From contig OX243822.1 in the NCBI GenBank assembly GCA_945859605.1, positions 16,198,671-16,262,670 of the forward strand: a stretch of 64,000 bases of DNA, written 5' to 3'. The position numbers were made by a program, and so were the translations under genes. Source of the DNA: Lumbricus rubellus. Lineage: Eukaryota > Annelida > Clitellata > Crassiclitellata > Lumbricidae. The notes under the pieces are model-generated. The model did no database searches, had not been told where the DNA came from, and worked only from the letters and a program-made list of their open reading frames with translations. This document shows positions 38,237 through 62,842 of the stretch, one piece after another (the stretch's first letter is position 1; each line of letters starts with the position of its first letter).

Positions 38237-40315
38237 ATGGTGACACTGCTCTTCACCTTATGGCTATTTGGAAAAGTCATTCGAAAATGGTTCATGTCTG
38301 GAGAAACAAGAAACACAGTTTGTGTGGGCGTACATGTAGATGATGCACGACAAACTGTTGAACTGAGCCATGAATCCGATACGAAGTACGTTGAATCTGA
38401 TGCTGAAAATATGATTTGTGAATCAGATGGATCTGAAACTAGCGAAAGTTCAAACACTCTTTCAGAAATCACAGAACTGTTTAAAATTCACAAAAATCAC
38501 GGCTGCTTGGGCATAGAAGCCCCAGCTGTAGAGAATGATGAGGACATAAGCTTACAAAACGTCTGTGGGAAAGAAATTGAATGCTTTAGTCAATTGCACC
38601 TTGCAGCTGAACGTGGTGATACGGAGGCAGTTGGAAGTCTGCTCATGTCGTCAGCGAATGTCAATGTACGAGATACAAAGCATAACACTCCATTACACAT
38701 CGCGACTCTAAATGGAAACTTAGACGTTGTCAATCTTCTAATAGCCAGTAATGCAAATGCTAACTCTAGGAATGCATTAGGTCAGACTTCGCTTCATCTT
38801 GCGATTGAAATCGGTCATTTAGCAATTGCACAATCATTGCTAGACAGCAACGCAGATATACATATTACCGATCAAGATATGAATACACCTATTCATGTTG
38901 CAGCTATGCATGGCCATTACGAACTCGTCCAGCTGCTGATGAAATATAGCGTTCTGCTAATATGTTATGGTAATAGACCGATACATCTTGCGGCAAAATT
39001 CGGTCATGCAGAGGTTGTGCAGCTTCTTCTAAATTACGATAAAAATCCTAACACTACAAATTTGAATGGTGACACTCCACTCCACCTTGCATCTGACAAT
39101 GGCCATTTAGAAGTTATAGAGGTTTTGCTAAGAAACCACGCAGATATTAATATTCATAACGAAAATGGTGACACTGCTCTTTACCTTGTGGATATGTCTG
39201 GACGAACAAGAAACACAGTTTGTGTAGATGATGCACTCAACCACGAATCTGATTCGAAATACGTTGAATCTGATGCTGAAAATATGGTTGGTCAATCAGA
39301 TATATCTGAAACTAGCGAAAATTCTAACACACCTTCAGGAATCACAGAACTGATTAAAATTCACGAAACTCACTGCTGCTTGGGTATCGATGCTCCAGCT
39401 GATGTGAAGCGTGGAGACATTCAAAACGTCTCTGAGAAAGAAATTGAATGCTTTAGCCAACTGCACCTTGCAGTTCAACGTGGTGATACGGAGGCTGTTA
39501 GAATATTACTCGAGTTGACGGTGAATATCGATGCGATGGACACAACGCATGACACTCCTCTACACTACGCAACTCTAAATGGACACTTTGACGTTGTCAA
39601 TCTTCTAATAGCCAGTAATGCAAATGTTAACTCTAGAAATGCACGTGGTAAGACTTCACTTCATCTTGCGATTGAAATCGGTCATTTAGCAATTGCACAA
39701 TCATTGCTAGACAGCAACGCAGATATACATATTACCGATCAAGATATGAATACACCTATTCATGTTGCAGCTATGCATGGCCATTACGAACTCGTCCAGC
39801 TGCTGGTTAAATATAGCGTTCTCCTGATATGCTACGGCAGTGGACCGCTACATCTGGCGGCAGAATGTGGTCACGCAGAGGTAGCGCAACTCCTACTAAA
39901 TTACGATGAAAATCCTAATGCATCAAACTTGGATGGTGACACGCCGCTCCACCTTGCATCTGAAAATGGCCACTTAGAAGTTGTAGAGATTTTGTTGCGA
40001 AACAGCGCAGATGCAAACATTCGCAACGTTTCTTGTAAGGCTTCTCTTCATATCGCTGCTGAATTGGGATATGCGGAAATAGTCAATGCATTGATTGGTC
40101 ACGAAGGAGAAGTGAATGTGGTTGACAGAAATGGCAACACTGCTCTTCATCTTGCAGCAAGCAATGGTCATAGCGCTGCTGCAAATGTCCTGCTCGATCT
40201 AACCACGGAAATGGATGCGAAAAACCATTCGCAATTATTGGCGGTAAACCGAGTTCTTCAAGCTGATATTGAACTTTCACTGCAACCAATTGGAGACGAA
40301 GTTGATGTTGGTCAC
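38237..40315 (+). CDS. ankyrin-repeat gene, 5' part (split by LTR retrotransposon)
   Basis: A 693-codon frame that runs directly into the LTR at 40,316. It has two tandem modules of about 900 bp. Each starts with an acidic, low-complexity header (E/S/D-rich, ending CLGIEAPA or CLGIDAPA) followed by about seven ankyrin repeats with typical TPLHLA and GHLEVV.LLL motifs. The two modules are highly similar over long stretches, indicating recent duplication. The first ATG lies in a stretch that is ankyrin coding sequence in another frame (compare 39,166 onward), so the signal-like start MVTLLFTLWLF is probably an artefact of an indel and the genuine N terminus lies upstream or in another exon. The reading frame continues exactly in the segment after the LTR element once one target-site copy is discounted. 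Ankyrin arrays act as protein-binding scaffolds. Confidence 0.85.
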
Positions 40316-40827
40316 TGTGATAACTCCCTTTCGTTATCACCTACTCCTATCAGTCTCTAGGAAGCTTCTTCGTATAAGTTCGTGGTAGCGTAGGCCTATC
40401 CCTAGATAACTGTTTCATTAGCTAAACGGCTAGGTAAAGAATCTACAGTCTTTCACTGTTTTATAATCGACACCGACGACGTGTTTAAGTCTTCTTATTA
40501 TACTCCAAAATCCGATGTAAAGTAAAACGATCAGCAACAACACAACAATGACTACACTTGCGTTATCATAACAACTACACGACTACTATCTTCATCAGTC
40601 TACTCTATCGCAACTCAACAACAACTATTACAGCCTATCTCAACGGCTCTCAACACGCAACTCTCCTTCTTCACTTCCACTCCCTCCTTGTACACTTAAC
40701 GTACGCTTGTCTAGACATCACGCGCTGTCTAGACAATCACCTGTCCAAACGCCGCGCGCCAATCTTGCAGCTGGCCTACCTGCATCGCTGTACAACAATC
40801 GTCGTGCACTGGTTAAATTAGCTTACA
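40316..40827 (-). repeat. 3' LTR
   Basis: 512 bp, same length and apparently the same sequence as 46,784-47,295. Preceded in sense by the polypurine tract at about 40,833-40,850. Confidence 0.93.
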
Positions 40828-40944
40828 TTACCTCCTTCCTTTCTTTTGAAGAGAGCTAATTAATCTTAAAAATTAGCGAACGTACAATGCTTAAACTAAA
40901 TACAAACAATTCCTATACTAAATGCAATCACAAAATATCTTATA

Positions 40945-43044
40945 CTACAATCTCGATAAGCAGTCCGCTACTACATTCAGCTTTCCCTTCTTATAATTCA
41001 ACAGAATGTCAAAATTTTGCAATGATAAAGACCATCTGACTAACTTAGCAGACTTCGACATTGACTCAGTCAAATAAACTAAAGGATTATGGTCAGTGAA
41101 CACATTAATCATGGAACCAATAATAATTTCTTTCAATTTGTTTAAAGCCCATATGATTGCATAGGCTTCCTTCTCAATCGTCGCCCATCTCCTCTGGGTA
41201 TCTGTCAGCTTCTGGCTGATAAATGAAACGGGACGTTCTATCCCCTCATGGTCCACTTGTGACAGCACAGCCCCCACAGCAAAATCACTGCTATCACAGT
41301 ACAAATTAAATGGTTTGCCAACCTCGAACATGTACAAAATAACATTTGATAAAACAATTTCTTTAAGAGAATCAAAAGATTTCTGGTGGTCCTCAGTCCA
41401 AACAATGTTCTCAGGTGTCTGCTTGCTAGTTAAATCTGTCAATGGTTTAGCAATTTCAGCAAAATTACAAATAAATTGTCTGTAGAAACCAAAAAATCCT
41501 AACACTTGCTTCACTTGCTTCTTCGTTTCAGGGTTTTTTAAATTAATCAAACTGTCAATCCTATCTGGATTCATCATCTTCTTCCCTGAGCCTATGAGGT
41601 GACCGATGAATTTCACCTCACTCTTACCAAACACACATTTCTTCAAGTTCAGACTTACATTATGCAGTCTTATTTGTTTCAAAAACAATTCTAAATGTTT
41701 CAAATGAATGTTCCAATCATCAGAATGTACTGCAATGTCATCAACATAAGGTTCAGTAAATGCATTAATCGGTTGCAAAATCATGTTTATGGCTTTTACA
41801 AAAGTCCGTCCAGAGTTAATCATACCAAAAGGGACACGTGTAAATTCGTACAGTCCATTATGGGTAACAAATGCGGTTTTCCATTGGTCGGATTTCTTCA
41901 CAGGACAAGTCCAGTAGGCACTGCGACAGTCCAAGACGGAAATAAACTTGGATTTCCCGACTTTGCTCAGCACGTCGTTGACGATCGGCATGGGGTATCG
42001 ACAATTTTCAGTATATGAATTCACGTACCTGTAGTCGCACGCGAGTCTCAAGGATCCGTCCTTCTTCTTGACGATGACCAGCGGACTTGCCATTCTGCTC
42101 GACGACGGTTGAATGATGTTTGCTTTCAGCATCTCTTGTATTTGTTTGTCCACTTCTGCGCGGTATATCAGCGGTATTCGATAAGCCATGAACTCCTTCT
42201 CTCGAAAGTCCAGTCTCAGCACCACTTCGTGTTCTACCAATGTACATAATCCAGGTTTGTCCGAAAATCTGTCTGCATAACGGTTCAGTACGTCCAGTAG
42301 CTGTTTCTGTTGCTCGCTCGTAAGATGTCCGATCTGTTCATAGTCCAATTGCAGCGATTTCTGTGTCGTCTCTGCATGGTCTTCTTTCAATGGTAGCTCT
42401 ACCACTGATCCGAATTCGTCGTCCTCTTCCACGATGAGACCACACGATAATGTTCTTGCGATGAACTTCCTCATTTTGTTGGCATGGACGATTCGTCGGC
42501 CGTTTTCATTCATGTCCACCAGATACGAATACTTGGATCTTCTTTGTAGCACTGTACATGGACCATGCCATCGTGAGATCAATTTATTGGTTGACGTTGG
42601 ATACAGGACGATGACGTTTTCTCCTGGTTCGAATTCTTTATCCTTGGCCCTCTTGTTATATTGACTGGCGTATTGTTTTTGCTTTTCCTCTGCACAATTC
42701 TCAGCGAATAGCAGGGCTTTCTCCATGTCGGCTCTTAAATTCTTCAGGTACTTTGCTGGTTGTACTCCGATGTTTGGCGGTAGATTTATTTCTTTGGTCC
42801 AGCTTTCCTTTAAAATAGTTAATGGTCCTCTTGGCATTTTTCCATACACCAGCAGATATGGTGCCACTCCTGTCGTTGCGTTAGGAACTTCTCTCAATGC
42901 CCATACGGTAAACGGAATGATTTTATGCCACTGTCTTGGATTTTCCACTATGACATGATGTACCATCTTCTTGAACGTCTGATTCCATCTCTCAACTAAT
43001 CCAGCTGCCTCATGATGCCCGGTGAATCGAATCGTGGACAGCAT
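40945..43044 (-). CDS. pol: LTR element pol 3' part: integrase end, reverse transcriptase, RNase H
   Basis: This frame starts inside the integrase core: the catalytic glutamate motif GLVERWNQ is near its start. An integrase C-terminal region follows (FEPGENVIVLYPT, WHGPCTVL). The reverse transcriptase then runs from about residue 260 with MASPLVIVKKKDG, FISVLDCRSAYW and the active-site motif YVDD (about 41,730-41,750). Next come the connection region (FYRQFI) and RNase H with LYCDSSDFAVGAVL, EAYAI, TDHNPL and the final VADCLSRL. The enzyme copies element RNA into DNA. The frame is offset from the upstream pol frame with a 49-nt overlap at 42,996-43,044, indicating a single small indel in the integrase or, less likely, programmed frameshifting. 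Confidence 0.92.
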   Translation of the reverse strand: MLSTIRFTGHHEAAGLVERWNQTFKKMVHHVIVENPRQWHKIIPFTVWALREVPNATTGVAPYLLVYGKMPRGPLTILKESWTKEINLPPNIGVQPAKYLKNLRADMEKALLFAENCAEEKQKQYASQYNKRAKDKEFEPGENVIVLYPTSTNKLISRWHGPCTVLQRRSKYSYLVDMNENGRRIVHANKMRKFIARTLSCGLIVEEDDEFGSVVELPLKEDHAETTQKSLQLDYEQIGHLTSEQQKQLLDVLNRYADRFSDKPGLCTLVEHEVVLRLDFREKEFMAYRIPLIYRAEVDKQIQEMLKANIIQPSSSRMASPLVIVKKKDGSLRLACDYRYVNSYTENCRYPMPIVNDVLSKVGKSKFISVLDCRSAYWTCPVKKSDQWKTAFVTHNGLYEFTRVPFGMINSGRTFVKAINMILQPINAFTEPYVDDIAVHSDDWNIHLKHLELFLKQIRLHNVSLNLKKCVFGKSEVKFIGHLIGSGKKMMNPDRIDSLINLKNPETKKQVKQVLGFFGFYRQFICNFAEIAKPLTDLTSKQTPENIVWTEDHQKSFDSLKEIVLSNVILYMFEVGKPFNLYCDSSDFAVGAVLSQVDHEGIERPVSFISQKLTDTQRRWATIEKEAYAIIWALNKLKEIIIGSMINVFTDHNPLVYLTESMSKSAKLVRWSLSLQNFDILLNYKKGKLNVVADCLSRL

Positions 43045-45131
43045 CCCATCAATTTCAAAAATTCTCTTGTAAGACTGGCTGTAAAATTCGTGCCTCTGTC
43101 GCTGGTGATCACAGACGGCACCCCCACGTCAATGAATAGCTTCATCAAAGCTTCGCACACAGCCTTAGCAGTCAATGACTTCAGCAAAAAGATTGTCGGC
43201 CATCTTGTACATGAATCCACTATGCACAAGCAATACTTATGCCCTGCTGCTGACTTCGGTTCTATTGGGCCTACCACGTCCATAGTCATCCGTCGGAATG
43301 GAACATCTTCCCTTGGAATTGGTGTAATCGGCACTCGATCCATCACCAAACTTCGTGCCTTCAGCTGACACTTCTCACAGGACTTACAAAATTTCACCAC
43401 ATCTCGACGCATCTTTGGCCAGACAAAGGACAACTTGATTCTCTCTCGTGTCTTCTCTTCTCCCAAGTGTCCGCCAAATACTGACTCGTGAGCTAATTCC
43501 ATTACTTGAATTCTTCTCTCTTTCGGTAACACCAATTGGTACACAAGCTGATCCAGCATTTGATGCTTCTTGTACATCAATCCATTCACCACGCTAAACT
43601 CTGAACCTTTGTCTTCAGCGATCCTCCACCACGATTTCAGTGACTCGTCATTTCTCTGCTGCTCCTCAAATTTCTTCGCATCTTCCAGCTGTCTTTCATC
43701 GTTCGAATTCTCTGTGAACAAGTCCCTCATACTTGTCTCCAGTTCAGCGTCGCTTCCGAAATCTTCACTATCATTTCGTTCACATGCAGCCATCTCTTCT
43801 TCAGTTTCATTGTTCTCAGATGTTGTTCTTTCGTCATCTTGAATGCTGAGTTCATCTTCGCTGTCCGTGTCATCTTCTTGCGAACTTTCGTTTATCGTTT
43901 CATCTTCTCCGTCTTCGACTTCTGCTCTCCGACTTTGTGCTCTTGTAGTCACATTCGCTTGTAGTTCCCCTTGCAATACACTCACTGGTGGAATCTCTTT
44001 CAATTCTGCAATTATCTCCGGATGTAGCAAGAACTTTTCTCTGTTTTCTTTGCACAGATCCGCTGGAATGCTGGCACACACTAAAGTTAAATATGGCGCG
44101 ATATTTATTGTCCTGTCCTCTGTAACTGCTCCTTCGTTACGACCGCTCATCCGCACTTCGATTTTCACCAACTTAGCTGGAATCGGCTCTCCAGCTACAC
44201 ATTGCAAATGAACTCTGCCGATTTCTTCTACTGTCGTTCCTTTCAGTAGTTCCTCGTTGATTACTGGTATCTCAGTCCCCGAGTCAATCAACGCCTCGAC
44301 TTGCACAGGCTGCCCATCAGTCCCACGTATCTCCACATTTACATGCTGCAACGATATCTTCTTTATGCGTTGACACTCCTCTTTACTTTTTGTTTCTCGA
44401 CAAATTTCTGCAGTGGAAGTAGTCTTTATCGCTTCTTTCTGTATGGTGAACTGCGGCGTACACTTCATTACCGACTTCACTTCTGTTTCACGATCGTCCG
44501 ATTCTTCAAACTGGTCTGGTGCATTCATTACTTGTATCTGGTTTACTCGAAGATTTTCTGCACTTCTGCTAAAGTTCTTCCTCAGATTTGCCGCTCCTGG
44601 TGCTTGGCAATGTTTTATTAGGTGTTTGTCAGAATGACAGTTGTGGCAACGTTTCTTTATAAAACTTCTTTGCGCATTGTTCTCCCACTTGTTGTACGGC
44701 GTGTATGATGCATTACTTTCTGTTGGGCGTCCCAGCGGCGGAGTTCGATTGTAGGCTTGTCTGTCCCACGTTGACTCTTTCTTATCTTGCCAATACTGCT
44801 TTCCAGAATAATTATCTTTCTTTGCATCATTACTCTTGGCTTGGCTTCCGGTGTCTTTGCTATCCTTGTTCCACTTGGGTTGCTTTGGACTATTGCCCCA
44901 TGTTTCGAATTTCGGTTTGTCTTGGAACATCACACCAATCCGATTGTTTACATGTATGTCTGCGAGGTCTGCCACGTTACTAGCTTCCAAGCATTCTGTG
45001 CCCTCTTTTGCTAAGACAAACTGCAGTGGACCTGGTGGTAAACATTCTTTCAGCTTATCCGCCACTAACAAATCAAACAGCTTCTCGTAGTCTTTGTCCA
45101 CTCGTCTACTTCGGACATAATAATTCAACAA
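42996..45131 (-). CDS. pol: LTR element gag end, zinc knuckle, protease, integrase start
   Basis: 711 codons. The N-terminal part completes the Gag capsid-like region. A CCHC zinc knuckle follows (CHNCHSDKHLIKHC, near 44,620-44,660), then an aspartic protease with the LIDSGTE active site (about 44,272-44,292) and an acidic spacer of about 100 residues rich in E and D. The integrase then has its HHCC domain (HESVFGGH...CKSCEKC) and the first two catalytic aspartates (MTMDVVGP and ITSDRGTNF). The last catalytic residue lies in the neighbouring frame. The normal gypsy order would place integrase after RNase H; here it precedes reverse transcriptase. Confidence 0.9.
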   Translation of the reverse strand: MLNYYVRSRRVDKDYEKLFDLLVADKLKECLPPGPLQFVLAKEGTECLEASNVADLADIHVNNRIGVMFQDKPKFETWGNSPKQPKWNKDSKDTGSQAKSNDAKKDNYSGKQYWQDKKESTWDRQAYNRTPPLGRPTESNASYTPYNKWENNAQRSFIKKRCHNCHSDKHLIKHCQAPGAANLRKNFSRSAENLRVNQIQVMNAPDQFEESDDRETEVKSVMKCTPQFTIQKEAIKTTSTAEICRETKSKEECQRIKKISLQHVNVEIRGTDGQPVQVEALIDSGTEIPVINEELLKGTTVEEIGRVHLQCVAGEPIPAKLVKIEVRMSGRNEGAVTEDRTINIAPYLTLVCASIPADLCKENREKFLLHPEIIAELKEIPPVSVLQGELQANVTTRAQSRRAEVEDGEDETINESSQEDDTDSEDELSIQDDERTTSENNETEEEMAACERNDSEDFGSDAELETSMRDLFTENSNDERQLEDAKKFEEQQRNDESLKSWWRIAEDKGSEFSVVNGLMYKKHQMLDQLVYQLVLPKERRIQVMELAHESVFGGHLGEEKTRERIKLSFVWPKMRRDVVKFCKSCEKCQLKARSLVMDRVPITPIPREDVPFRRMTMDVVGPIEPKSAAGHKYCLCIVDSCTRWPTIFLLKSLTAKAVCEALMKLFIDVGVPSVITSDRGTNFTASLTREFLKLMGCCPRFDSPGIMRQLD

Positions 45132-45209
45132 GTTCTTCAGCCTATAGCCGTGAACATCGTATACGTTTCTTCGGCTGTCTTCTTGGCATCTGCAAACCTT
45201 GACCTGTAC

Positions 45210-46448
45210 TCACGAGCTGTTAACTTGAATTCCTTCAACAAGTGCTCTTTCACTGCATCGTATATATTTATCTAAATTCTCAAATGACAATCGATTCAAT
45301 ACCGTTCGCGCTCTCGAGGTCATCAATGGCAACAACAATTTCACCCAGTACTGCTTTTCCACAGCGAAGCTATTGAATGCATTTTCAACTGTTTCAAAAT
45401 ATAATGGCACTTCCATCATATCATACGGCATCTTCGGTAACACATGTTTCATTGCATCACCTATCTTCTTAATCTTGGACACCATTGTCTCACTTTCTCT
45501 GAGCCTAATCTGTTCTGACACTTCTCGGCTCTTACGATCATCTTCGTCTCTCTTCTTCAGTCTATTTTGATCTTCTATCCTACGCAGTTCTTCTTGTTCA
45601 ATCTTCTGCTGCAACAGTTCTAACTGCTTTCTGCGTTCTTCTTTTTCAATAGCCATCTCATGGAGTTGAGCTTCCTTAATAGCAAGTTTCTTTTGTTCTA
45701 ATTGCATCTGTTCTTCTCTTTCTCTTTCTGCTTTTTCCAAATTGTCTTTTCCAGCTTGAAACTCTTCCTGACGAATTTCTTCGGCTCTTTGCAGTTCTTG
45801 TAAACGCATTTTCTCCTTTTCTTCCTCGCGAGCCTTTTTGTCTTCGATCTGCTGTTTTCGTATTTCTTCATCGCTTTTTCTTGCTTTTTCGTATTCTATC
45901 ATTAACTCCATCCTTCGTCGTTCTGCTTCGTCACGATCTATTCTCATTTGTTCTAATTGTATCTGGAACTGCTGCCTCTGCATGTCTATCTCTTGTTGTC
46001 GCAGCCTATCTGCTTTTTCTATTCTTTCTTTCTCTTCTTGTTTATGCTCTTTCTCTTCCTGTCTGCGCTGCTCTTCTTTCTCTTTCTCCTCTTGTTTCCG
46101 CTCTTTCTCTTCTTGTTTACGCTGCTCTTCTTTAGCTTTCTCCTCTTGTTTACGCTCTTTCTCCTCTTGTTTCCGCTGCTCCTCTTTCATTATCATGAAT
46201 TGCAGCAACGCCTCCATAGACATCGGTGCCTGAGGTTTCTCAACCGGCTTTTCTTTAGCGCCTCCCACAGCACCTTCTTCTTCAACTTCTTCCTTTGCCC
46301 AAACCTCCGCCAAATTTCTCATCAAACTTTCCCTCGACATCTGTCCGACTTCATCTGCGTCAAGACCTGCTTCGATTAATAATTTTACTAGTCTCTCCGA
46401 AGACATCTTTTTAATAGCTGCTTGCTTCTGCTCCGTAAGTTTCTCCAT
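45210..46448 (-). CDS. gag: LTR element Gag, N-terminal part
   Basis: 412 codons starting at an ATG about 335 bp inside the 5' LTR. Residues 1-60 are helical (SSERLVKLLIEAGLDADEV). Residues 85-300 are a long charged coiled coil of KEEQRKQEEKE-type repeats. The last 80 residues (MPYDMMEVPLYFETVENAF) are capsid-like. The frame then goes astray: capsid-type sequence continues in other frames between 45,270 and 45,131, so at least two small indels separate it from the next ORF. Gag forms the particle; the coiled coil probably drives assembly. Confidence 0.8.
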   Translation of the reverse strand: MEKLTEQKQAAIKKMSSERLVKLLIEAGLDADEVGQMSRESLMRNLAEVWAKEEVEEEGAVGGAKEKPVEKPQAPMSMEALLQFMIMKEEQRKQEEKERKQEEKAKEEQRKQEEKERKQEEKEKEEQRRQEEKEHKQEEKERIEKADRLRQQEIDMQRQQFQIQLEQMRIDRDEAERRRMELMIEYEKARKSDEEIRKQQIEDKKAREEEKEKMRLQELQRAEEIRQEEFQAGKDNLEKAEREREEQMQLEQKKLAIKEAQLHEMAIEKEERRKQLELLQQKIEQEELRRIEDQNRLKKRDEDDRKSREVSEQIRLRESETMVSKIKKIGDAMKHVLPKMPYDMMEVPLYFETVENAFNSFAVEKQYWVKLLLPLMTSRARTVLNRLSFENLDKYIRCSERALVEGIQVNSS

Positions 46449-46783
46449 CTTACTTCTTTACTTTACTGATGCTAGTCGATAAATAGTAGACTACTCTTCA
46501 AATGTTTGCAATTGGCTGACTTCAATTCTTTAAGCAAACTTCAATAGACAAGCAAGTTTTTTTCTACCTTGTAGTCGTTGTGTTGTCGTTTCTCACTGTC
46601 GTACGGTTGCTCGATGATCGTTGACCAGTCGTCGTCTGATCGAAATTCCTCACCAGTCGATGCTCTCCGAATGCACAGCGTCCGTTCCTCCGTAACGTCT
46701 GTTGACTGGATAGAATCCCTCCGTTCGTAACTAGGATCGTTCTCCTGCAACTTGGATCGTTATCTCACCGCAACGACACCAAA

Positions 46784-47295
46784 TGTGATAACTCCCTTTC
46801 GTTATCACCTACTCCTATCAGTCTCTAGGAAGCTTCTTCGTATAAGTTCGTGGTAGCGTAGGCCTATCCCTAGATAACTGTTTCATTAGCTAAACGGCTA
46901 GGTAAAGAATCTACAGTCTTTCACTGTTTTATAATCGACACCGACGACGTGTTTAAGTCTTCTTATTATACTCCAAAATCCGATGTAAAGTAAAACGATC
47001 AGCAACAACACAACAATGACTACACTTGCGTTATCATAACAACTACACGACTACTATCTTCATCAGTCTACTCTATCGCAACTCAACAACAACTATTACA
47101 GCCTATCTCAACGGCTCTCAACACGCAACTCTCCTTCTTCACTTCCACTCCCTCCTTGTACACTTAACGTACGCTTGTCTAGACATCACGCGCTGTCTAG
47201 ACAATCACCTGTCCAAACGCCGCGCGCCAATCTTGCAGCTGGCCTACCTGCATCGCTGTACAACAATCGTCGTGCACTGGTTAAATTAGCTTACA
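46784..47295 (-). repeat. 5' LTR
   Basis: 512 bp. Ends at TTACA on the plus strand; the next TT and GGTCAC belong to the target duplication. An 87-codon frame occurs identically in both LTRs and is a by-product of the repeat, not a gene. Confidence 0.93.
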
Positions 47296-47303
47296 TTGGT
47301 CAC

Positions 47304-50300
47304 ACTTCACACCACCTAATTGCAGAAAAAGGTGGTAATTTTGAAATCACGGATCGTCAATTAGGTCATTCTTCTATTTTAGGTAACATCTGCAAAAGGC
47401 AAGCAACATCACCTCGCGTTGCAGCAAAGCGGGGCTATGCAGACATTGTACAGATTTTGATACGTAACGATGCAAAAGTCAATGCGTGTAACGGAGCCAA
47501 GTTGACCGCACTTCATTTAGCCTGTCAATATGGTTGCACTTCCATTGTTAAGATTTTACTGGATAACCATGCTACCGTTGATGCTACGGAACAATCTGAG
47601 GAAACTCCATTTTGCCTTGCAGCTGAGAATGGTCATGCAGAAGTCACGGATTTGTTATTGCATTACGGCGTTTGCGATTTCGTGTTGACAAAATCTAATG
47701 AGACACCGTTGCACGTTGCCTTCAAAAATGGTCACGTAGAAGTTGTTGAGGTTATTTTGAAACACAGCCGCAGGGTATATGAGAAATTAACAGAGGGCGG
47801 GAAAAGTCTTCACGAGATCACCAAGAGAGGCGTCAAGCCATTTGAAATTCTGAAATCCGATAATCGACGTGCTTCTGCTGAAATTGTTTGGACAGAAAGA
47901 CACATATCTCTTGAGATGCAGAGAGACTCAGATGGATTCTCTCCACTCCTACGTGCAGTGTATTCGAATGACCCGAAAATGGTTGAGCTGTTGCTCAGTG
48001 TTGATGAATGCATGTATTCAGAGACGAATATTGCAGATTGCTTTCGTTCCATTACGAGGGAAATCCTATCTGACGATGTTGCGTGCGAGGCTTTAAGTGA
48101 CGCTAAGAAATATAGAATGAATTTCATAAACATTGTGCAATTTCTATTTAACTCGAGTAAATTCAATGTAAACCACCAGGACGAACAATTGAATTCCTTC
48201 CTTCACAATGTGATGAGACACGAATACAAACGTTCTACTGGTGGTTGTCTTGTTGAGAAGTCAGACCGATTAAAACTGCAGATTCAAATCGAAATGATAC
48301 AGATGTTAGTAGAAAAAGGTGTAGACCTCAATATGAGAAATTCTTTTGGCGAAACGCCTTTGATCATTGCCTCAGGGAAAGGCTGTTTCGAAGCCATTCA
48401 AACTCTATTTGACTGGGAAGAACAATCAGGATTGAAAGTCGACATAGACGCAAAAGACCTATCTGGAGCAACTGCTTTGATTAAAGCAGCTGAAAGGAAT
48501 CATGTCTCAGTTATGCGATTGCTGCTGAAGCAAAAAGCTTCCGTCAATTTGTACGATTATTATGGCTTTACGGCTTTGCACACAGTTTTCTATGATCCAC
48601 ATTTGAAGTGGTTTGATAGGCATATATTAGGCAAGAGACTTTGTAGACGAAATAATAATGAAGAATATCCCCAGATTGACCACAAGGATAGTTTTACGTG
48701 GGAATTAGAACTCGCGGATATAAACTCAGCAATTTACCAGCTATGGGAAACTCTTGAGCATGACGAGAAATCCACTCGAATTAAGGAAGAAATGGTTAAA
48801 TTGTTATTAGATGATGCTGAAATTGACGTGAATGCCAGAGACTTTAGTGGAAATACGCCACTTGATTTGGCAACAAAGTCTTCCAAACCAATTACTTCAG
48901 CAACTTTCGAAGCACTTCAAAAACGCGGGGCCATTCTAAACTCACTAGCCCTTAAAGAGGAAGCACCGATCGCAGAGGCATTGGTTGACGAGAGAGGTCT
49001 AAACCCTCTTCATCTGCTCATCATCTCCTGTGTTTCATATGAAGTAAAGGACTACTGTCGTACTCCGAGAAACACGTTAGAACAGATTCACGCTGGAAGA
49101 TTCGATTCAGTGGCTGATGGAATTCTTCAAGGACAAGAAATTTTCAGGGAGCTGGCCTCTGCAACAGATCACAAAGGAAGAACTCCACTTCACTATGTAG
49201 TCAGGCCGCCATTGGCACCGTGCTATGGCGAACCTCCAATTCACAATCTAGTGAAGGCGTTAATGAAACTAGGTTGCAACCTAAATGCAGCAGACACTTA
49301 CGGCAAAACCCTGTTGCATTACGTGGAAAGTGATGATCACTACGAGCAACTTGTTCAGAACGGAGCTAATGAAAATATAGAAGACAAAAAAGGGCATACA
49401 CCTAAGAAACTTAAAGGGCTACGAGAATCGGTGGCTATCAACGAACGCCAGGCACGGTATTGTGATATAGGAAAAAATCAGCATTGCATTTCTTCAGATA
49501 TTACGAAAGTACTAAAATCAAATCATGTGACAGAATTGTCAAAGCAAAATTTGGCTGAAGCGATAAGAATTTTCTCTCAATTCCCACGCCTTCACGAATC
49601 ACCAGAAGAAGAAATTTGGAAGATATGGACCAAAGACGACTTCATTCGCCTAAACGCACGCCTAAGACAACTCACTAATCCATTAGTACATCGATTCATT
49701 GAACGTTTGGCCGATGGTATGAAGAAGAAGGACTGGCGATTTGAGTGCCATCCGACTTTAGTTGGTAGCGCCGAAGAAAAAACAAAAGTCGTCATATCAG
49801 GAGACTATGACTTTAACTTTAGACTTATTCAATTCAGTCAAATATGTGACCCATTTCCACATCCACTGGGTCCGAAAGGATACTTTGAACTACGACGGAA
49901 GCCTAATAAGGATGTGGACAGTATGAGTGACGATCCTTTTGCCTCTTTCTTCAACTCAGATCGCTGTTTGCTGACTAACGAAGTTAATTCTAGATTTCAG
50001 ATTATTTTGGACGAAGTCTTACGTGACCATAATTTCTGGCGAGGCGAACACATGTTTGAAAGCGCCTTTTTCAATAGACGCTTCAGTTTTGAAGATGAAG
50101 CTGGTTTGTGTAAGACTCTGGAATTGAGAATGATTCATCCCATTGGGAACGGAGAGGACGACTTTCTTTTGGTCAATATATCAATAGACATCGTTGCTTG
50201 TGTTCACGTGGACGATTGGTGGCCAGAAGACCCAATGCCGTTTGGCATAAGCCCATCCGTAAAAACACAGGGATGCACATTCATCTTTGATCGGCCTCGT

Positions 50301-51252
50301 TTTGATCCTTCCAAGCTTCAAGGCACTGCTTTTCTCTTTTCCGATACTTTTTCCAAAATATCATTTGCGCCAGTTGAAAGTCGAATCATAAAAGAAAGCT
50401 CCCCTTTAATGAAGGCAGCATATATTGTTTGCAAAATGATACTTTACACAGAGGAGAGAATTACTTATCAATTGAAGAATAGTCTTCTTTTTTGCATGGA
50501 GGGTTTTAGTGATCGAAGGGGAAGTGAATCAAGAAACAACAACGAAATAACACCAAGGAAACTCGCCTTCTGGGTAGAAAGGATCATGTTTTGCTTCGTG
50601 GAATTTTCTCGACATCACGTGTATCCCAGTTACTTGATGCCCTCCTTTAAGCAGCAAGCAGCAGAAATCGATGACAATGAAATATTGACGGACAACAATG
50701 AAGAGGGTGCGATGGGAGTTTCTATAAGATACTCTAGGTCCTATGACATTTACCTTGACCTATGTCCAGATGATACTGCCATCGAAATACCTGTATTCGA
50801 AAACGAAGATCATAATTCTAGACAACGTTTTAATGCGGGTCATCGTACAAGCTGGGAACAATTTGATCGAGAAAAATTCATTAGCAAGCTATGTTCAGGT
50901 TGTCTTAAAAACTCGAGCAATTTGATTTACCATCCCCAGCGACTTCTTAGAGTGGAATACACAGAATATGAAGAAATGCAATCTGATAAAAATAAGGCAA
51001 CATCGGGGTTGAAACGAAATTTGCATGGGGCCGATTCGAATTCAGCGACTGTTTCGAAGGAGAAAACGCAATCGCTGCAGGAGTGCCTGACCAAATCTCA
51101 TGTCACATGGGCGATTACATCGACGGAACATCGCCAAAGACAGCGAGGTATTGTGAATATGCTAGTGGACTCCGGCTATCCTGTAGCGATGTGTGATCAT
51201 CCATCTTTTCGTGAGATGATACAAACTGTGGATCCGAAATTCAATTTGCCTG
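47304..51252 (+). CDS. ankyrin - cGAS-like receptor - hAT N-terminal fusion (main exon)
   Basis: One uninterrupted frame after the LTR insertion. Residue numbers count from the frame start at 47,175. Ankyrin repeats at about 70-190, 385-480 and 665-755. A Mab21/cGAS-type nucleotidyltransferase spans about 815-1190: glycine-serine motif G864-S865, activation-type acidic pair D877-Y-D879, and a third acid D1005 in ISIDIVACV followed by WWP, as in cGAS. The C-terminal helical lobe is recognisable (ITYQLKNSLLFCMEG; YPSYLMPSF). No cGAS zinc-thumb is evident. cGLR enzymes sense nucleic acid or other ligands and make cyclic dinucleotides. From about 1,295 the frame enters a hAT-transposase region (QSLQECL; IVNMLVDSGYPV; DPKFNLPG) and ends at a donor G|GTTAGT (51,253). 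If unspliced, a stop follows at 51,255. Confidence 0.88.
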
Positions 51253-51719
51253 GTTAGTCTGTTAACAACTACGAAGATATTATATTTTTATTCCAACGCC
51301 TGAAAACTTATGTAACGTAATTTGTTATTCATCTTGACCAGGACTTAGTTTCATATATTATGTGGCATTTTGGAAGGAAATTGTGCTGTACCAACTTTTG
51401 AAAACTTTCTCACTGTCTTTAAGACCAAAACAGTGACTTGTATTATTTTCTTTTCAACTTAAAACTTCCATCCCAAGATGAAACTTCCCTCTTTCTACTG
51501 CTAATCCTCTTCACGCGTAGGCTACTTACCTTCTGATTTGATCTGATAATGACCGGGTTTCAAACCGGAGTGCCATTTGCAGATGCTTTGTGTCGTCGAC
51601 ACCGTTGCCATAAAAGTTGCACATAAGCCAGCCGTGCATTTCTATAGCTCGATTTAAAAGAGAAAAACAGAGTTGCCTGTGTGGTAATGTTAATTATTGT
51701 AATTTAGACCTATCTCTTC

Positions 51720-52100
51720 TTCTGGTTTTCTGCCCCTATAGGCAGGTTCGGCTATAGCCAATGTCGCCACTCTTCCCTCCGCTGGGCCTTCTCCTTTAGT
51801 CTTTGGTAACCGATCCTCCTCACCAGCGTGTCCAGCAACATCTGTCGTGGTCTTCCTCTTGTTCGTTTCCCCTCCATTTTCCTTCTATTACCGCTTTCGC
51901 CAGACTGTCTCCTCTTAGCGTATGCCCTATCCATTTCTTATGTCTTTCTCTGATTGTTTTTATCATTGTTCTTTCCTCTCTTACCCTTTCCAGCACTTCC
52001 TCGTTTGCTCTGTGTTCCGTCCAGCTGATCTTCTCCATTCTTCTCCACGTCCACATTTCAAACGCTTCGATTTTCTTTATGTCTTCTTTTCTCATGGTTC
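51720..52100 (-). pseudogene. non-LTR retrotransposon C-terminal remnant
   Basis: Minus-strand residues WTWRRMEKISWTEHR, HKKWIGHTLRGDSL and KRTRGRPRQMLLDTL are the typical tail of a LINE reverse-transcriptase protein. Two frames are needed to read it (shift at about 51,880), so it is dead. Confidence 0.8.
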
Positions 52101-52295
52101 AGGTTTCGGAACCATACAACACCACTCTCCACACTAGTGTTTTTATCATCCATTTCTTGAGGTTTCTGTTTAGCTCCTCGTAGTAGCCTACTATTATAGT
52201 ACAGCAGTTATCAAAGCAATAAACAGTAAACTAGGAAAGCCATGGTGGTGGAACTACACTTGCACATGTTGAAACACGCAACGGTGTACTAGGCC

Positions 52296-52466
52296 TACTA
52301 TCTAACTATCTAACTATCTAACTATCTAAATCTATCTATCTATCTATCTAAATCTATCTATATCTATCTATCTATCTATCTATATCTATCTATATCTATC
52401 TATATCTATCTATATCTATCTATATCTATCTATATCTATCTATCTATATCTATCTATATCTATCTA

Positions 52467-52557
<91 letters not shown>

Positions 52558-52600
52558 GCAATTTATATAGCGCCCCTTTAAGGAGGGACAGCACATATGC
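52296..52600 (-). mobile_element. (TATC)n array joined to LINE 3' motif
   Basis: About 260 bp of TATC/TATATC repeat, then GCAATTTATATAGCGCCCCT. Same junction as at 16,510-16,560. The element body beyond about 52,585 is lost. Confidence 0.8.
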
Positions 52601-52705
52601 TCAGAGTCTGTGAACGCATCATGCATCATATGTAACCATATAGTTATGATTTAAATTTGTACTTTTCATGTGATATTGTCACGTTGGTGTTGTTCATATT
52701 CGTAG

Positions 52706-53524
52706 GTTCTGTAAAAATGAATCAGTTGATTTCTGAACAGTATCGAGCCAGTTGCAGCAAACTTGAACAGCTTCTTGATCAAGCACGTCGTGTCACAATA
52801 TGCTTGGATGCATGGACTAAGAAGGGTCTGGCAGTTTCTTATCTTGGCATTTCGGCATGTTTTTTTGACACAACATCAGGTCAGGCACGCCATTTTATTC
52901 TTGATTTGATGGAATTGAAACATCCGCACACTGGTGAAACTCTTTACGAATGCCTTATGCAAAGTCTGTGTCGATGGAAGATCCCAAAGAGAAAGGTCCT
53001 TCTTATTGTTTCAGACAACGGGTCAAATATGGTGAAGGCAGTAAAATTAATGCAGAGCAAGTTTAAAACTGATAAAGGTATCTTGGAGGAGGTGGAAGAT
53101 GATGATAATGATGATGATGACGATGACGACGAGGAGGAGGAGGAGGAGGAGGAGGAGGAGGAGGAGGAGAAGGAGGAGGAGGAGGAGGAGGAGGAGGAGA
53201 GAGATGAAGAGGAAAATAGTGAAGAAACTGAAATTGATATCATGCAGTTGCCGTTCTATGTTCCTTTTCGACGTATGCCGTGTGTGGCACACACTCTACA
53301 ACTCCTAACTAAGCCAGTTTATGCACATTTCCAAGCTGAACTTTCTAAAGCTCGTGAGGTCGTTGCCAAAATTCGAAAGTCCAGCATTGCTACGAAAACA
53401 CTTGTCAGCAGGTGTGGCAAGGTTGTTATCACAGACTGCACAACGAGGTGGAACAGTGCATACTTGATGGTCAAGCGGTTACTGGTTATCAAGATCGCTG
53501 TCAATGAAGCGTTGACAGAAATTG
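52706..53524 (+). CDS. hAT-transposase-like exon 2 of the ANK-cGLR fusion
   Basis: Acceptor TTCGTAG|GTTCTG at 52,705 and donor ATTG|GTATGA at 53,525. Phase 1 on both sides, so it joins the previous and next exons in frame. It contains the first half of a hAT RNase-H-like core: ICLDAWTK with the first catalytic aspartate, HTGETLYECL, and VSDNGSNMVKA with the second. An in-frame microsatellite encodes about 45 acidic residues (53,094-53,215). The conserved CVAH motif follows (PCVAHTLQLL), then CTTRWNSAYLM. Apart from the acidic run the sequence is undamaged, with no stop or frameshift. Confidence 0.85.
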
Positions 53525-54179
53525 GTATGATTTGTCATGCAAAATAAAATTAGATTGCTTAATGTTTGATAATTACTTCTGTAGCATCATAGTCTATTTA
53601 TTGTTTCTTCTTCTTTTGTATTCTGCCCTTAGGCAGGTCCAAGATTCCAACCACACCATTCTTGTCTATTCTGTGCTATTTCCTTGATTTCTTTTTCTTC
53701 GTCCACCAACCAGTCCACCATCATCTTTCTTGGTCTTCTTGGTCGTTTCTTTCACTCCATTCTTCCTTTGAGTCTGTTCTATCATCAAGATCGATTAATT
53801 GTTTATTGTTTTCATAAGGTTTGTCTACACTCTACAGCATCATTGTCTAATGATATTTCTAAGCCAATCTGAAATCACGTCCGCAGCAGAAAATCAATGC
53901 ATTGAGAAACGGATGAATTACAATGTATAAGACACTCTGTTGAGAAATAGTATAGGCCTAGGTCAGAAATTACAGATACAGACACTACAGCACATAATGG
54001 AGCTCAATTGTGGAGAATAACCTTTGTCTCTATATAAAATGCATCCTTTGCTGAGCAGGAAAGATCATGTTATAGGTTCATTGTATATAAAACTTACGCT
54101 TCAGTTATATAGAAAGTAACATGTCTAAAAACCGTTTGTGTGTTTAAACTGACATTTACGTAATATTTTTGTATGCCAG
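53525..54179. other. intron with decayed LINE tail
   Basis: 655-bp GT-AG intron. At about 53,620-53,790 minus-strand residues (RPRRPRKMMVDWL, AQNRQEWCGW) are another non-LTR C-terminal tail. Confidence 0.7.
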
Positions 54180-54952
54180 GCATTGATTCTCTGTTGTCCC
54201 GTGAGTGGTCAAAGCTGGAGGAAATATGCAGTCTGTTGGAGCCCTTTGCAGCACTTACTGACACACTGCAGAGTGATTCTATGCCCTTGTCAAACATTAT
54301 TCCATCTCTCCTGGACTTGGAATACCATCTCCAGCAATTTCCATCTGCCCAGGCACTGACATCTTTCATGCTGAGAGATTTCAAGACGAGATTTGCCTCA
54401 ATCTTACTCCCGCATTCGGACCACTACAACCCTATACCGGCTGCTGCTTGTCTGTTGGATCCGACAGTTGCATCAGTTCTTCAAGCTCCAGAATTCGCTG
54501 CTCTTCGAAATGCTGCAATGTCATTTGTCATACATGTAAGCGTTGAAGATGAACGTAGTGTTTCGAACTTTGTCGGTGAGTCACCAAAGGGCAATTCACA
54601 GCCTTTGACCAGTCCCCCAGCATTGAAAAACTTTAAGTTTTTATCAAGCAAACTGTACTCACAAGAAAACGCGATCTCATCACACAGTCAAGCACAGGTC
54701 AATCGCTATTATCAGGAAATCGCCAACACCTGCTGCAACAATGGCGTGCAGTTTTGGAGAGACAGACGGCAAGTCTACAAAAATATCGCCCCACTTGCTG
54801 AAGACCTCCTGGCAGCTCCAGCTTCCCAAGCTTATGTGAAAAGAATTTATTCTGTGTGCGGGCTCATAACAATTGGACGAAGGAACCGAATAAAGAAGTC
54901 TTTTGAAATGAGAGTTTTTCTAAAGTTAAACAAACATCTGGAATGGCAATGA
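54180..54952 (+). CDS. hAT-transposase-like exon 3 with dimerisation domain
   Basis: Acceptor TATGCCAG|GCATTG at 54,179, phase 1, stop TGA at 54,950-54,952. It carries the second half of a hAT transposase: WSKLEEICSLLEPFAALTD, AACLLDPTV, a tryptophan-containing segment (VQFWRD), and the C-terminal hAT dimerisation region (PLAEDLLAAPASQAYVKRIYS, RRNRIKKSFE, FLKLNKHLE). In active hAT enzymes the segment after the PAS-type motif has an S-E-R-x-F-S pattern with a catalytic glutamate; here it reads VKRIYS, so the acid is lysine. This suggests loss of transposition activity and a retained DNA-binding or dimerisation role, or decay. Confidence 0.85.
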
Positions 54953-55479
54953 CAGTTAAAATGACAATGCATAAAAAGCTACAAAGAATTATTACTGATA
55001 TTATTTTCAAAGAAGAACAGTTTAAAAAAAATGATGCCGGAAATTATTTAAGAAATTGAATTAGAAGTAGACTGAATTAAAAGTAAAACTGAATTTCTAT
55101 GAACTGTAGGTCTAACTGAAATTTGAACCAATATTGAGGACGACTGAACTAAAAAGAAGTTAAATGAAAATTATTTGGACTTCAGGAATAAGGACAGTTC
55201 ATGGATGAGTAATGTTCGCCTACTAAGACTCTTCTGCAGTTTAGTATAAAAAATAGCAAATTAGTGTAGATTAGTCGAACTGTCGTTGATTGGTTAAACG
55301 TTACTTATAATTATCGTGGCTGGTGCCTAAGCTTTTTCTTACCTTCATAGTCACGTCATGTAAGTGAGAGACAGTTAATTGTTTGATCTTTATATGTCAT
55401 CTCATTGGCCTGTGCTCTGATTGACAGAATGATGACCATCTAGAATGCTTTCTGTGAATGGCAAACTGAATGGTTAAAA
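54953..55479. other. intergenic sequence, no supported gene
   Basis: AT-rich single-copy sequence between the fusion gene and the ankyrin pseudogene. Confidence 0.45.
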
Positions 55480-56703
55480 ATGAATAATAAATCAACGACG
55501 CCAAAGAATCCTGATCCAACCGGGCATATTATATCAAATGCAGCTGACATCGACAAAGAACGTTCGGCTGTTGAACCGCATCACGAAACAGAGACGAATG
55601 ACGTTGAATCGGATGATGAAACTAAAAGCGACAAAGCAGATGGACCAGAAACTAGGAAGAAATTTTGCTTTGTTTCTCCAATCGATCAACTCATTGCCAT
55701 GTATGGCATTCAGAATGTCAGTAGACATTTTGAGGCTGATGAGGAACAGGGAGTCATTCAAGAAACAGGTAGGCCTACAGATTCTGACTCTGACTCTGAT
55801 GACGAGAGAGGGTTTTATAACGACTATGAGAAAGATGAAGAAAAAGACCATAGTAAATTTCACGAAGTTCGCCGTGTAGCGGAACGTGATGATACGGAGG
55901 CTGCTAGAAGTTTAGGCCTACTAATGCCATCATCGAATATCAATGTTATGGACAGGCAGCATGACACTTCTTTACATTATTCAACCAGAAATGGCCACAT
56001 TGACATTGCAGATCTTCTACTAAGAACGAACGCAAATGTTAACTCCAGAAATGCACGAGGTGAGACTCCGCTTCATCTGGCGGCTGAGCACGACCACTTC
56101 GCAACTGCACAAATGTCGTTGAAAAACAAGGCAGATGTCCATGTAACTAACCAAGCTAGCGTTACCCCGGTTGACATGGCAACCAGGCGTGGTCATTCCT
56201 AACTTGTCCAGCCTCTGATGAACTCCTTCGAATATTCGCTGAAAGAAACTTCGTTGCTTCATTCTGCGGCAAAATGCGGAAATGCAAAAGATGTGCAGCA
56301 GCTCCTTCTAAATTGCGATGTAAATCCTAACGTTTGAAACCTGGATGGTGACACTCCTCTCCACCTTGCGTCTGAAAATTGCCATTTGGAAGTTGTAAAG
56401 GTTTTGTTGAGAAGCAACGCAGATGCTAACATTCGCAATGCTTCTTGCAAGACCCCTCTTCATGTCGCTGCTGCAATGGGTTACGCTGAAATAGTCAAGG
56501 CATTATTAAATAATGAAGACGACGTCGTTTATGCGATTGACAGAAATGGCGATACTGCTCTTCACCTTGCAGCAAGCAATGGACATAGCGCTGCTGTGAA
56601 GGTCTTGCTCAATCTGTCCGCGAAATTGGACGTGCAGATCTGTTCCCAACTCGCGGACTTTATCATCATTATTATTTCCATATTTCATCCTTACTTTACA
56701 TGA
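55480..56703 (+). pseudogene. ankyrin-repeat paralogue with two in-frame stops
   Basis: One frame of 407 codons shares the header and repeats with the 38-kb gene (GETPLHLAAEHDHFA, GDTALHLAASNGHSAAVKVLL). It is broken by TAA at 56,200-56,202 and TGA at 56,335-56,337 but is otherwise in register, so the damage is young. The N-terminal 140 residues are acidic (DSDSDSDDERG). About six ankyrin repeats remain, and the frame ends in non-ankyrin sequence. No cGLR domain follows, so it is a partial copy of the ankyrin module only. The intact 240-codon 5' portion could still be translated. Confidence 0.8.
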
Positions 56704-57549
56704 TGAAAGTCTCAATAAGCGTTTTCAATTTTATGGATGGATCCGATTTGACCAGGGTCTATGACAACAGAGGCCGTTACCCTGGACAGAAATTTCCTCG
56801 GCATATTACAGCACTTCAATTTTATGACATGAAGACTATGCTTAAATATAAACATAGCCTACATAATTATCATACATTACATATATATATATATATATAC
56901 GACTATACGTGCAGTTAGCGGGATCTTGATACCTTTATTTTAGGGCTTCCTAACAGAGTAAACACCTGTTTAACTTGGTTGCAAAAGCAAATTTGATTGA
57001 ATGATTGATTGATGTTTTAACTAACAGTTGCTAAACTCAAACCCAGTCTATTAATAACCTAAGTTAAATTTTGAAGATAAATCCCCCCCCCCCCAAAAAA
57101 AATCAGTACCACCCATATTTTGCTATGACACGTTAAACACCCGAATATAATACTGCAGCGATGTCGTTGAATTACAACAGATTGACTATTTTTCACCAAT
57201 AATGACTATGGAAGAAATTAAGCTAGTTGAGCGTAACTCTTAAAAGAATAACACATCTCACGCAGCAGGATTGCCATAATACTGTATAGAGAATTATAGC
57301 CTACAAAGAGACAGGCCTAGATGCTGTATGACTCGAGTAAAAATTATTTATCAACGTTGGTAATGCTATAGCAATCACCATAAAAATTTCTGACGCCATG
57401 GCGAATAAGATTAAAGTAGTGAACTTAACATAAAAAGGAGATTTTGGGATGGAAAAGGGACGATAAAGGGAATCGATTGACGAGATTATTGAGTCTATTG
57501 GGATCAATCGTAAACTTGGACACATAGTTTATGAAAGCCATATTGGAAA
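56704..57549. other. AT-rich sequence, no supported gene
   Basis: Includes (AT)n at 56,878-56,899 and poly-C/poly-A at 57,086-57,106. Nothing coding is supported. Confidence 0.45.
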
Positions 57550-60550: not shown

Positions 60551-61513
60551 TCACAATGTCAGCAAGTCTTCATTTTCGATCCATGAATTAAACGAGTCTG
60601 GGTAGCCCAACCACTTCACGAGACATTTCTTCCCGCGTTTCCTAATCACTTTTTCAATTCTAAATATTTCTTGAGTTGTTTTCTGTAGCTCCTGCTCGTA
60701 AAAAGAGCCTTGTATTTCCTCACCAGCAGAATCAGTAATCTTGTAAGTTGGTGGATCTGTATATTGAACCTGAGATACTACAAAAACCTCCTCCGTCCAT
60801 CTAGGTATATATCCTTTGTCAAAAATGTTCTTCTTCCTAGTTATTCTGACTCGATCGCCGATTGAAAACTTTGGTATAATAGGCTCTGAAATCTCGTCGC
60901 CGTATAAATTCAAAAATACTGTCTTTTCGTTCACTTTCAAACTAGCCTTGGCGGGAGTAATTTTAATGGAAGAATGTCTCGTTTGATTATAATTACTAAC
61001 CATTTCGTCTAATACATCGATATATCTTCTAGTTGAATTAGCCGTAAAGTACTTGAACATTTTATCTTTCATACTCCTATTCCATCTTTCTACGATACAA
61101 CTTTTACCCTCGTTCTCGGTAGAGTACAACTCAACCAAATTCTTTACATTTTTATTATAAAATTCTTTTCCTTTGTCGCACCAAACTTTGACTGGCTGTC
61201 GACCACCCCCGAGTATCTTCACGAACCCATCGGCTGTAGACTTCCCACTCTTGTCATGTAATGGAACGATCCACCCATACTTGGAAAACACATCTATAAC
61301 GGTCAATAGAAATTTCACGCCATCATTATCTCTAGCGAAAGCCTGCATGTCGATTAGATCAGCCGCCCAAATCTGGTCAATCCCGCCAACACGGACCCGC
61401 CTCGTCCTAAAATTTCTCACTACTGGTTTGTGTAATTCATTCGCTAATTGATTAGTCCATTTCAGGTCCTGCTGTAATTCTAGGCTTTTTTTAAACCTAG
61501 CCCGAGACTCGTT
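60551..61513 (-). CDS. INT: Polinton/adintovirus-type integrase with chromodomain
   Basis: The open frame runs from after a stop at 61,514 to 60,551. Residues given from the GTG at 61,420. DDE core: D21 (IWAADLIDM), D82 (VWCDKGKEF), E111 (CIVERWNRS). A chromodomain-like tail follows at about 254-286 (IEKVIRKRGKKCLVKWLGY, SWIENEDL), as usual for Polinton integrases. The D82-E111 spacing is 28 residues, shorter than the usual about 35, so a small in-frame deletion is likely. No ATG occurs in frame before M25, which is already downstream of D21. The frame overlaps the end of the phospholipase ORF in the -1 register at T TTA AAA, so expression by frameshift or splicing is suspected. It would insert the element DNA into the host genome. 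Confidence 0.88.
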   Translation of the reverse strand, partial: NESRARFKKSLELQQDLKWTNQLANELHKPVVRNFRTRRVRVGGIDQIWAADLIDMQAFARDNDGVKFLLTVIDVFSKYGWIVPLHDKSGKSTADGFVKILGGGRQPVKVWCDKGKEFYNKNVKNLVELYSTENEGKSCIVERWNRSMKDKMFKYFTANSTRRYIDVLDEMVSNYNQTRHSSIKITPAKASLKVNEKTVFLNLYGDEISEPIIPKFSIGDRVRITRKKNIFDKGYIPRWTEEVFVVSQVQYTDPPTYKITDSAGEEIQGSFYEQELQKTTQEIFRIEKVIRKRGKKCLVKWLGYPDSFNSWIENEDLLTL

Positions 61514-62004: not shown

Positions 62005-62033
62005 CTCGTTTTTAATAATATATATTTTTAAAA
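62005..62033. promoter_or_regulatory. AT-rich divergent promoter
   Basis: 29 bp of almost pure A/T (TTTTTAATAATATATATTTT) between two divergent start codons. It can supply TATA-like elements for both genes. Confidence 0.55.
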
Positions 62034-62822: not shown

Positions 62823-62842
62823 AATTGTATTGTATAGTAAAA

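Follow-up and report, generated by a model that had tools for sequence, protein, structure and literature searches.

How did one reading frame in the annelid Lumbricus rubellus come to run from ankyrin repeats through an enzyme of the cGAS fold into a hAT transposase, and could the resulting gene work? The question is raised by a 64,000-nucleotide stretch of contig OX243822.1 (GenBank assembly GCA_945859605.1, positions 16,198,671 to 16,262,670), here called the window, in which the gene occupies positions 38237-54952. We consider it likely that a gene of the type encoding ankyrin-repeat cGAS-like receptors (ANK-cGLRs) lost its stop codon as an adjoining hAT gene on the same strand joined its last codons, most likely through a small deletion, and that the tail from hAT would be passive or self-associating. 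A lineage-specific read-through fusion is the most likely description of the locus; its function is unproven. The chimera is probably young and perhaps non-working. The parts of the gene and the evidence for each are as follows.

38237-40315, + strand: 5′ part of the gene, with the ATG, an acidic linker and ankyrin repeats (open frame and Ank matches)
47304-50903, + strand: continuation of the gene, with ankyrin repeats and then a Mab21/cGAS-fold nucleotidyltransferase at about 49500-50903 (homology to the protein P0001, joined frame and cGAS matches)
50892-50910, + strand: fusion junction, where the enzyme's last residues are followed by the hAT BED zinc finger from its middle on (homology edges of P0001 versus hAT relatives)
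50910-51252, + strand: hAT exon 1 remnant, with the second half of the BED finger (second His changed to Leu) and the N-terminal hAT region (alignments)
51253-52705, + strand: intron 1, GT-AG, phase 1, with microsatellites inside (splice sites and edges of relatives)
52706-53524, + strand: hAT exon 2, the core, with Asp at 52807 and 53014, an acidic stretch and RW at 53449 (alignments)
53525-54179, + strand: intron 2, GT-AG, phase 1 (splice sites and the edge of the relative P0046)
54180-54952, + strand: hAT exon 3, the dimerisation domain, with Lys for the catalytic Glu at 54839 and the stop TGA at 54950-54952 (Dimer_Tnp_hAT match and Hermes alignment)

From 5′ to 3′ the gene encodes ankyrin repeats, a Mab21/cGAS-fold nucleotidyltransferase and a hAT transposase, with no stop in between. 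The stop-to-stop open frame is 47040-51257 (+ strand; 1405 aa), the first 88 codons of which (to 47303) are long terminal repeat (LTR) and duplicated flank of an inserted retrotransposon; gene sequence starts at 47304. Across 200 shuffles of 47304-51254, the longest open frame was at most 213 codons. A sequence-only reading of the same DNA had proposed this domain order, an open frame over the enzyme/hAT boundary and two phase-1 GT-AG introns (at 51252/52706 and 53524/54180), and all three hold: the ankyrin repeats score far above the Pfam cut-off, the hAT part has a Pfam match of its own, and the enzyme part has cGAS profile and fold matches. Within the gene, the acidic linker and an ankyrin block are tandemly duplicated (38356-39145 and 39229-40012; copies 85% identical), with a ratio of nonsynonymous to synonymous substitution rates of about 0.34 over 261 codons, so the ankyrin part has been under constraint since the duplication. 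With the insert removed, the spliced chimera would comprise 693 + 1846 = 2,539 aa (arithmetic from coordinates 38237-54952, with two introns, both in the hAT part). Known RNA families gave no match at the gathering threshold and were rejected.

The enzyme and hAT homologies meet within about 18 bases. P0001 (1349 aa, on a 6.4-kb contig) is the closest protein found to the enzyme part, with 48% identity over 1184 alignment columns; its last residue aligns opposite 50924, where enzyme homology ends. Those hAT relatives that have a full N-terminus start aligning in mid-BED-finger, at 50880 (P0003), 50889 (P0005 and P0009) and 50901 (P0006), and the second half of the finger (KNSSNL) begins at about 50910. 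Self-comparison of the window found no repeat at 50892-50910. Unspliced read-through to the stop at 51255-51257 still includes 115 hAT codons (50910-51254), and any product of the frame read to this first stop would carry them, unless the transcript ends or splices earlier. The enzyme had earlier been taken to end at 51,255, and its output end to have been replaced or extended. The enzyme instead ends near 50900, the 115 further codons in the same exon being hAT, and the nucleotidyltransferase aligns with P0001 up to the last residue of P0001, contrary to a replacement.

What kind of enzyme is it? Against the Pfam Mab-21 family (PF03281), the window scores 13.4 bits (E 0.084) and the domain alone 15.6 bits (E 0.018), neither reaching the cut-off of 24.1 bits. 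The second enzyme homologue, P0002 (26% identical), matches PF03281 at 2e-10 (41.5 bits); P0001 has no match at E 0.01. The profile check suggested by the sequence-only reading was thus borne out for ankyrin and Dimer_Tnp_hAT, both over their cut-offs, but not for Mab-21 in the window. A profile of three homologues (the window, P0001 and P0002) matches cGAS in the Protein Data Bank (PDB) at 3e-07. Its strongest stretch (i-Evalue 0.00066) covers the Gly-Ser and D-x-D motifs, whereas the third Asp aligns just in a second, weak one (i-Evalue 1.8); all three Asp/Glu catalytic positions are acidic in both P0001 and P0002. The candidate residues are these.

49764-50189, + strand: candidate catalytic residues, with Gly-Ser at 49764, Asp-Tyr-Asp at 49803-49811 and the third Asp at 50187 (cGAS alignment and homologues)

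The middle residue of the Asp pair is Tyr, and the second and third Asp are 125 residues apart. The best 34 PDB fold matches are all cGAS, MAB21L1, MiD49/51 or beetle cGLR, at template modelling scores (TM-scores) of 0.30-0.36 by query; the underlying structure model is poor (mean predicted local distance difference test score 38.5, built with 3 sequences) and was used for fold matches alone. A survey of cGLRs lists as criteria a G[S/G] loop, an [E/D]h[E/D] motif plus a third [E/D], a spacing of 50-90 residues and predicted structural homology to cGAS (PMC9980059). The window has the activation loop and the acidic triad (its third Asp weakly aligned), its spacing of 125 falls outside 50-90, and a cGAS-like structure is predicted from a low-confidence model with low TM-scores. 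Because of this spacing, formal cGLR membership is not claimed, and we name the protein an enzyme of the Mab21/cGAS fold whose active site is cGLR-like. As judged from the alignments and the model, its identification is sound as far as the fold and the probable residues of the active site are concerned.

For the hAT part, exon 3 matches Dimer_Tnp_hAT (PF05699) at 22.6 bits, barely over the cut-off of 21.4, and exon 2 matches DUF659 at 20.2 bits, under the cut-off of 34.7. A protein search with the tail gave 87 matches among the best 7985 candidates, which were about 340-1090 aa long. Over nearly its full length the spliced tail is 45-47% identical to the three best free hAT matches, and the nearest named relatives are from Hydra and Polypterus. 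The relatives also inform on the introns. At intron 1, where the window boundary is query residue 92, 38 of the 87 start at residues 88-96; 20 of these do so at 88-92, and the other 18 begin with a Met at 96, perhaps through start-codon choice. Unrelated residues stand just before this boundary in four of eight relatives inspected (P0011, P0013, P0017 and P0021), and P0046 ends exactly at the intron 2 boundary. The predicted introns thus fall where free hAT relatives have exon edges. A donor-like site, GTAAGC, lies at 54536, where the alignments of 46 of the 87 relatives end (query residues 481-484); the frame stays open across it in the window, and an extra short intron is possible. An intact hAT element with terminal repeats at its ends was set aside as a candidate: when 50850-51060 was compared with 54940-57500, 12-of-14 inverted matches numbered zero, as against 2, 0 and 3 in three shuffles. 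The 5′ end of the hAT element seems to have been deleted.

Could the tail still act as a transposase or bind DNA? Both Asp of the core are retained, as in 79/81 and 85/86 of aligned relatives, respectively. Twelve of the 87 relatives align as far as the column of residue 572 in Hermes (chain 8edg), a Glu; all but P0008 (11 of 12) retain that Glu, and codon 54839 of the window encodes Lys in its place. The catalytic residues of Hermes are D180, D248 and E572, so that the Glu column is the catalytic one and the window lacks the full DDE triad of an active hAT transposase. The first half of the BED finger is replaced by enzyme sequence and its second His is Leu; the hAT dimerisation domain is present (PF05699). 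With half of the finger, a further finger His and the catalytic Glu gone, the hAT part, judged by these residues, is not an active transposase, and it is not evidently a DNA reader of the BED type either. The same losses tell against the earlier proposal that a transposase DNA-handling module had turned the enzyme into a nucleic-acid sensor. The DNA-handling idea is thereby weakened but may still hold, since hAT cores touch DNA outside the finger.

The degree of decay was gauged in a ten-sequence alignment of the window and nine of the 87 relatives. The window departs at 6/61 otherwise invariant columns and the other nine rows at 1/54 to 12/67, which places the window within their range; other column subsets gave 13/95 (others 1/80 to 25/107) and 22/159 (others 15/152 to 30/167), with the same conclusion. 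The C-terminal block, with 12 such columns, holds four of the window's six departures (P 0.011 by a hypergeometric test, the block having been picked once the data were known). In the other rows, C-terminal block departures number 4/12 in P0009, 2/10 in P0010, 1/9 in P0047 and none in the remaining six. The tail is open over 646 codons. Under random substitution (1000 trials), it stayed open in 465 trials at 1.0% per site, 50 at 4.1% (80 substitutions) and 2 at 7.7%, so the tail has been under some constraint or only briefly drifting (roughly <4% neutral change per site).

The fusion was met at this locus only, within protein searches restricted in candidate number or protein length. The search that used the enzyme part gave two matches (P0001 and P0002) among 7668 candidates, neither with a hAT domain. 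None of the 87 hAT-tail relatives is listed with ankyrin or Mab-21 domains. A search with the whole chimera, scored on the hAT part, gave no match at E 0.001 among 7963 candidates of about 1016-3231 aa, a weak negative, as candidates may have been drawn largely by the tail's acidic stretch. The sequence-only reading had named, as a finding that would speak against it, related genomes with a cGLR gene free of hAT and a free hAT element elsewhere. This is partly borne out: P0001, at 48% identity, stops at the enzyme with no hAT part, and hAT relatives that stand free are common. A viral contig collection was also tried as a source and rejected, with 114 pattern matches and none confirmed.

Absent from the sequence-only reading is a retrotransposon that splits the gene between 38237 and 47304.

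40316-47295, − strand: LTR retrotransposon inside the gene, antisense to it (LTR identity, flank repeat, and integrase, reverse transcriptase and RNase H Pfam matches)
40316-40827 and 46784-47295, − strand: LTRs of the inserted retrotransposon (match 514/514 identical, of which two bases are probably flank)

The insert encodes integrase, reverse transcriptase and RNase H. Read in its own direction, it has the integrase frame upstream of that for reverse transcriptase; we take this to be the Gmr1-like order, unusual among Ty3/gypsy elements. TTGGTCAC is present at both sides of the retrotransposon. An eight-bp duplication is longer than usual for the Ty3/gypsy group, and part of the flank match may be chance. 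Joined without the insert, the flanks form a single 2,014-codon open frame from the first Met at 38237 to 51257. With the insert in place, a protein begun at 38237 would end after 707 aa, and past the insert the first Met in frame is at 47916. Because the retrotransposon splits the gene, the sequenced allele cannot make the whole protein from 38237, and this copy is probably inactive as a chimera. The insertion is recent, since the LTRs are identical, and it may be polymorphic among individuals.

The account that we favor would thus begin with a hAT gene downstream of an ANK-cGLR gene, on the same strand. A small deletion would have taken the enzyme's stop, the hAT start and half of the BED finger, and an LTR retrotransposon would later have broken the joined gene. 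Expressed from an uninterrupted allele, the enzyme half would, by analogy, still make a nucleotide second messenger upon ligand binding, with the ankyrins as a scaffold. The hAT tail, if translated, would be passive or would self-associate via its dimerisation domain, and would not act as a transposase or BED reader. Several points weigh against this account. The DNA of a single genome proves neither that the chimera is expressed nor in what order the events took place; the proposed deletion leaves no direct trace, and a search for terminal repeats at the ends of the element gave none; P0001 (48%) and P0002 (26%) are too distant to inform on closer relatives; and the open tail of 646 codons leaves room for selection having kept it.

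That last point leads to an alternative, which we consider unlikely, in which the chimera is a selected, functional receptor whose hAT tail oligomerises the enzyme or targets it to transposon DNA or chromatin; most individuals would then carry the gene intact, the allele with the insert being rare. The three-exon tail is indeed open with its splice sites intact, its 6/61 departures fall inside the range of free relatives, and the dimerisation domain is marginally over the Pfam cut-off; the zinc finger, however, is broken, four of the six departures lie in the C-terminal block (post hoc, as noted), both enzyme homologues found lack hAT, none of the 7963 long candidates matched with the hAT part (the weak negative described above), and the sequenced allele is interrupted. 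In a more specific form, to which we give little credence, the hAT-derived C-terminal domain of an uninterrupted allele would self-associate or bind hAT proteins, clustering and activating the cGAS-like enzyme. If so, a transposon multimerisation module would set the threshold of a nucleotide second-messenger alarm, possibly answering transposon activity. The locus might also comprise two overlapping transcription units, one for a cGLR product ending at the intron-retention stop at 51255-51257 and one for a separate hAT gene read from the Met at 50976 by its own promoter. Such a Met is present, and an AATAAA at 52218 in intron 1 could end the short transcript. This arrangement strikes us as improbable: the shorter product would still have 115 hAT codons, the separate hAT product would be without a BED finger, and the AATAAA is not special, with more AATAAA/ATTAAA at 53543, 54889, 55076 and 55486. 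An assembly artefact, either a misjoin of two genes or a collapsed repeat, could be suspected in a window full of microsatellites and repeats, yet the junction lies within coding sequence with its frame kept, self-comparison is free of repeats at 50892-50910 and the insert has matching flanks, and we regard this explanation as very improbable indeed.

Other features of the window lie around the gene. A second ankyrin-repeat copy, related to the first gene, lies downstream at 55444-56703 (74% DNA identity between 39523-40200 and 55935-56615). It has an in-frame stop at 56200-56202, beyond which the enzyme parts of P0001 and P0002 find no counterpart, and is a tandem member of the family, probably decayed. 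Remains of a virus-like mobile element lie at 60554-63634, with integrase core and chromo matches (both under the Pfam cut-off), a protein with DUF5679 and phospholipase A2-like parts, and an ATPase of the pox A32 type (above cut-off); we take it to resemble Polinton/adintovirus-like elements. Positions 1-31000 hold unusually dense microsatellite and minisatellite arrays, such as an array of a 21-bp unit at about 1600-2830.

Each half of the chimera has described counterparts. Ankyrin-repeat cGLRs are known, for example cGLRs of Stylophora pistillata fused to ANK and death domains, and the window resembles them in that a single protein carries both ankyrin repeats and a nucleotidyltransferase of the Mab21/cGAS fold, with Gly-Ser and the acidic residues kept; unlike the cGLRs surveyed there (spacing 50-90), it has an Asp spacing of 125 and a C-terminal hAT tail (PMC9980059). 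Host-transposase fusions such as SETMAR, CSB-PGBD3 and KRABINER likewise join host coding sequence in frame to DNA-transposase sequence; their host part is a gene-regulation domain, whereas here it is an immune-type nucleotidyltransferase (PMC12062965). Unlike in those fusions, the transposase finger here is broken and the join is by read-through inside an exon. At the junction the frame runs on from host to transposase uninterrupted; further upstream, the insert breaks this gene. Proteins of the ZBED type, derived from hAT, are reported from many animals (PMC10027918). The window shares with them the hAT core and dimerisation domain, and the Hydra protein P0004 (named "ZBED1-like" by NCBI) is 47% identical; it differs in its incomplete BED finger, lost catalytic Glu and position behind another gene. 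With the Hermes hAT transposase (4d1q, 2bw3 and 8edg) it aligns over the hAT core and two catalytic Asp, but it has Lys for the third catalytic residue, Glu, and no complete finger. Domain shuffling in these enzyme families has been discussed, in a paper whose main text has no matches for "transpos" or "ankyrin" (PMC10732462).

ANK-cGLRs and host-transposase fusions are thus each known; literature searches did not find the pairing, in agreement with the view that the architecture had not been described. For the reading of genomes, the locus carries a caution: a gene that a young retrotransposon has broken can pass for intact when a window is read alone. The pairing would be a direct instance in which an innate immune enzyme has recruited a transposon protein. 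Even without a function, the locus shows the raw step: a transposase on the same strand beside a host gene, a few codons lost, an in-frame chimera and fresh transposon damage.

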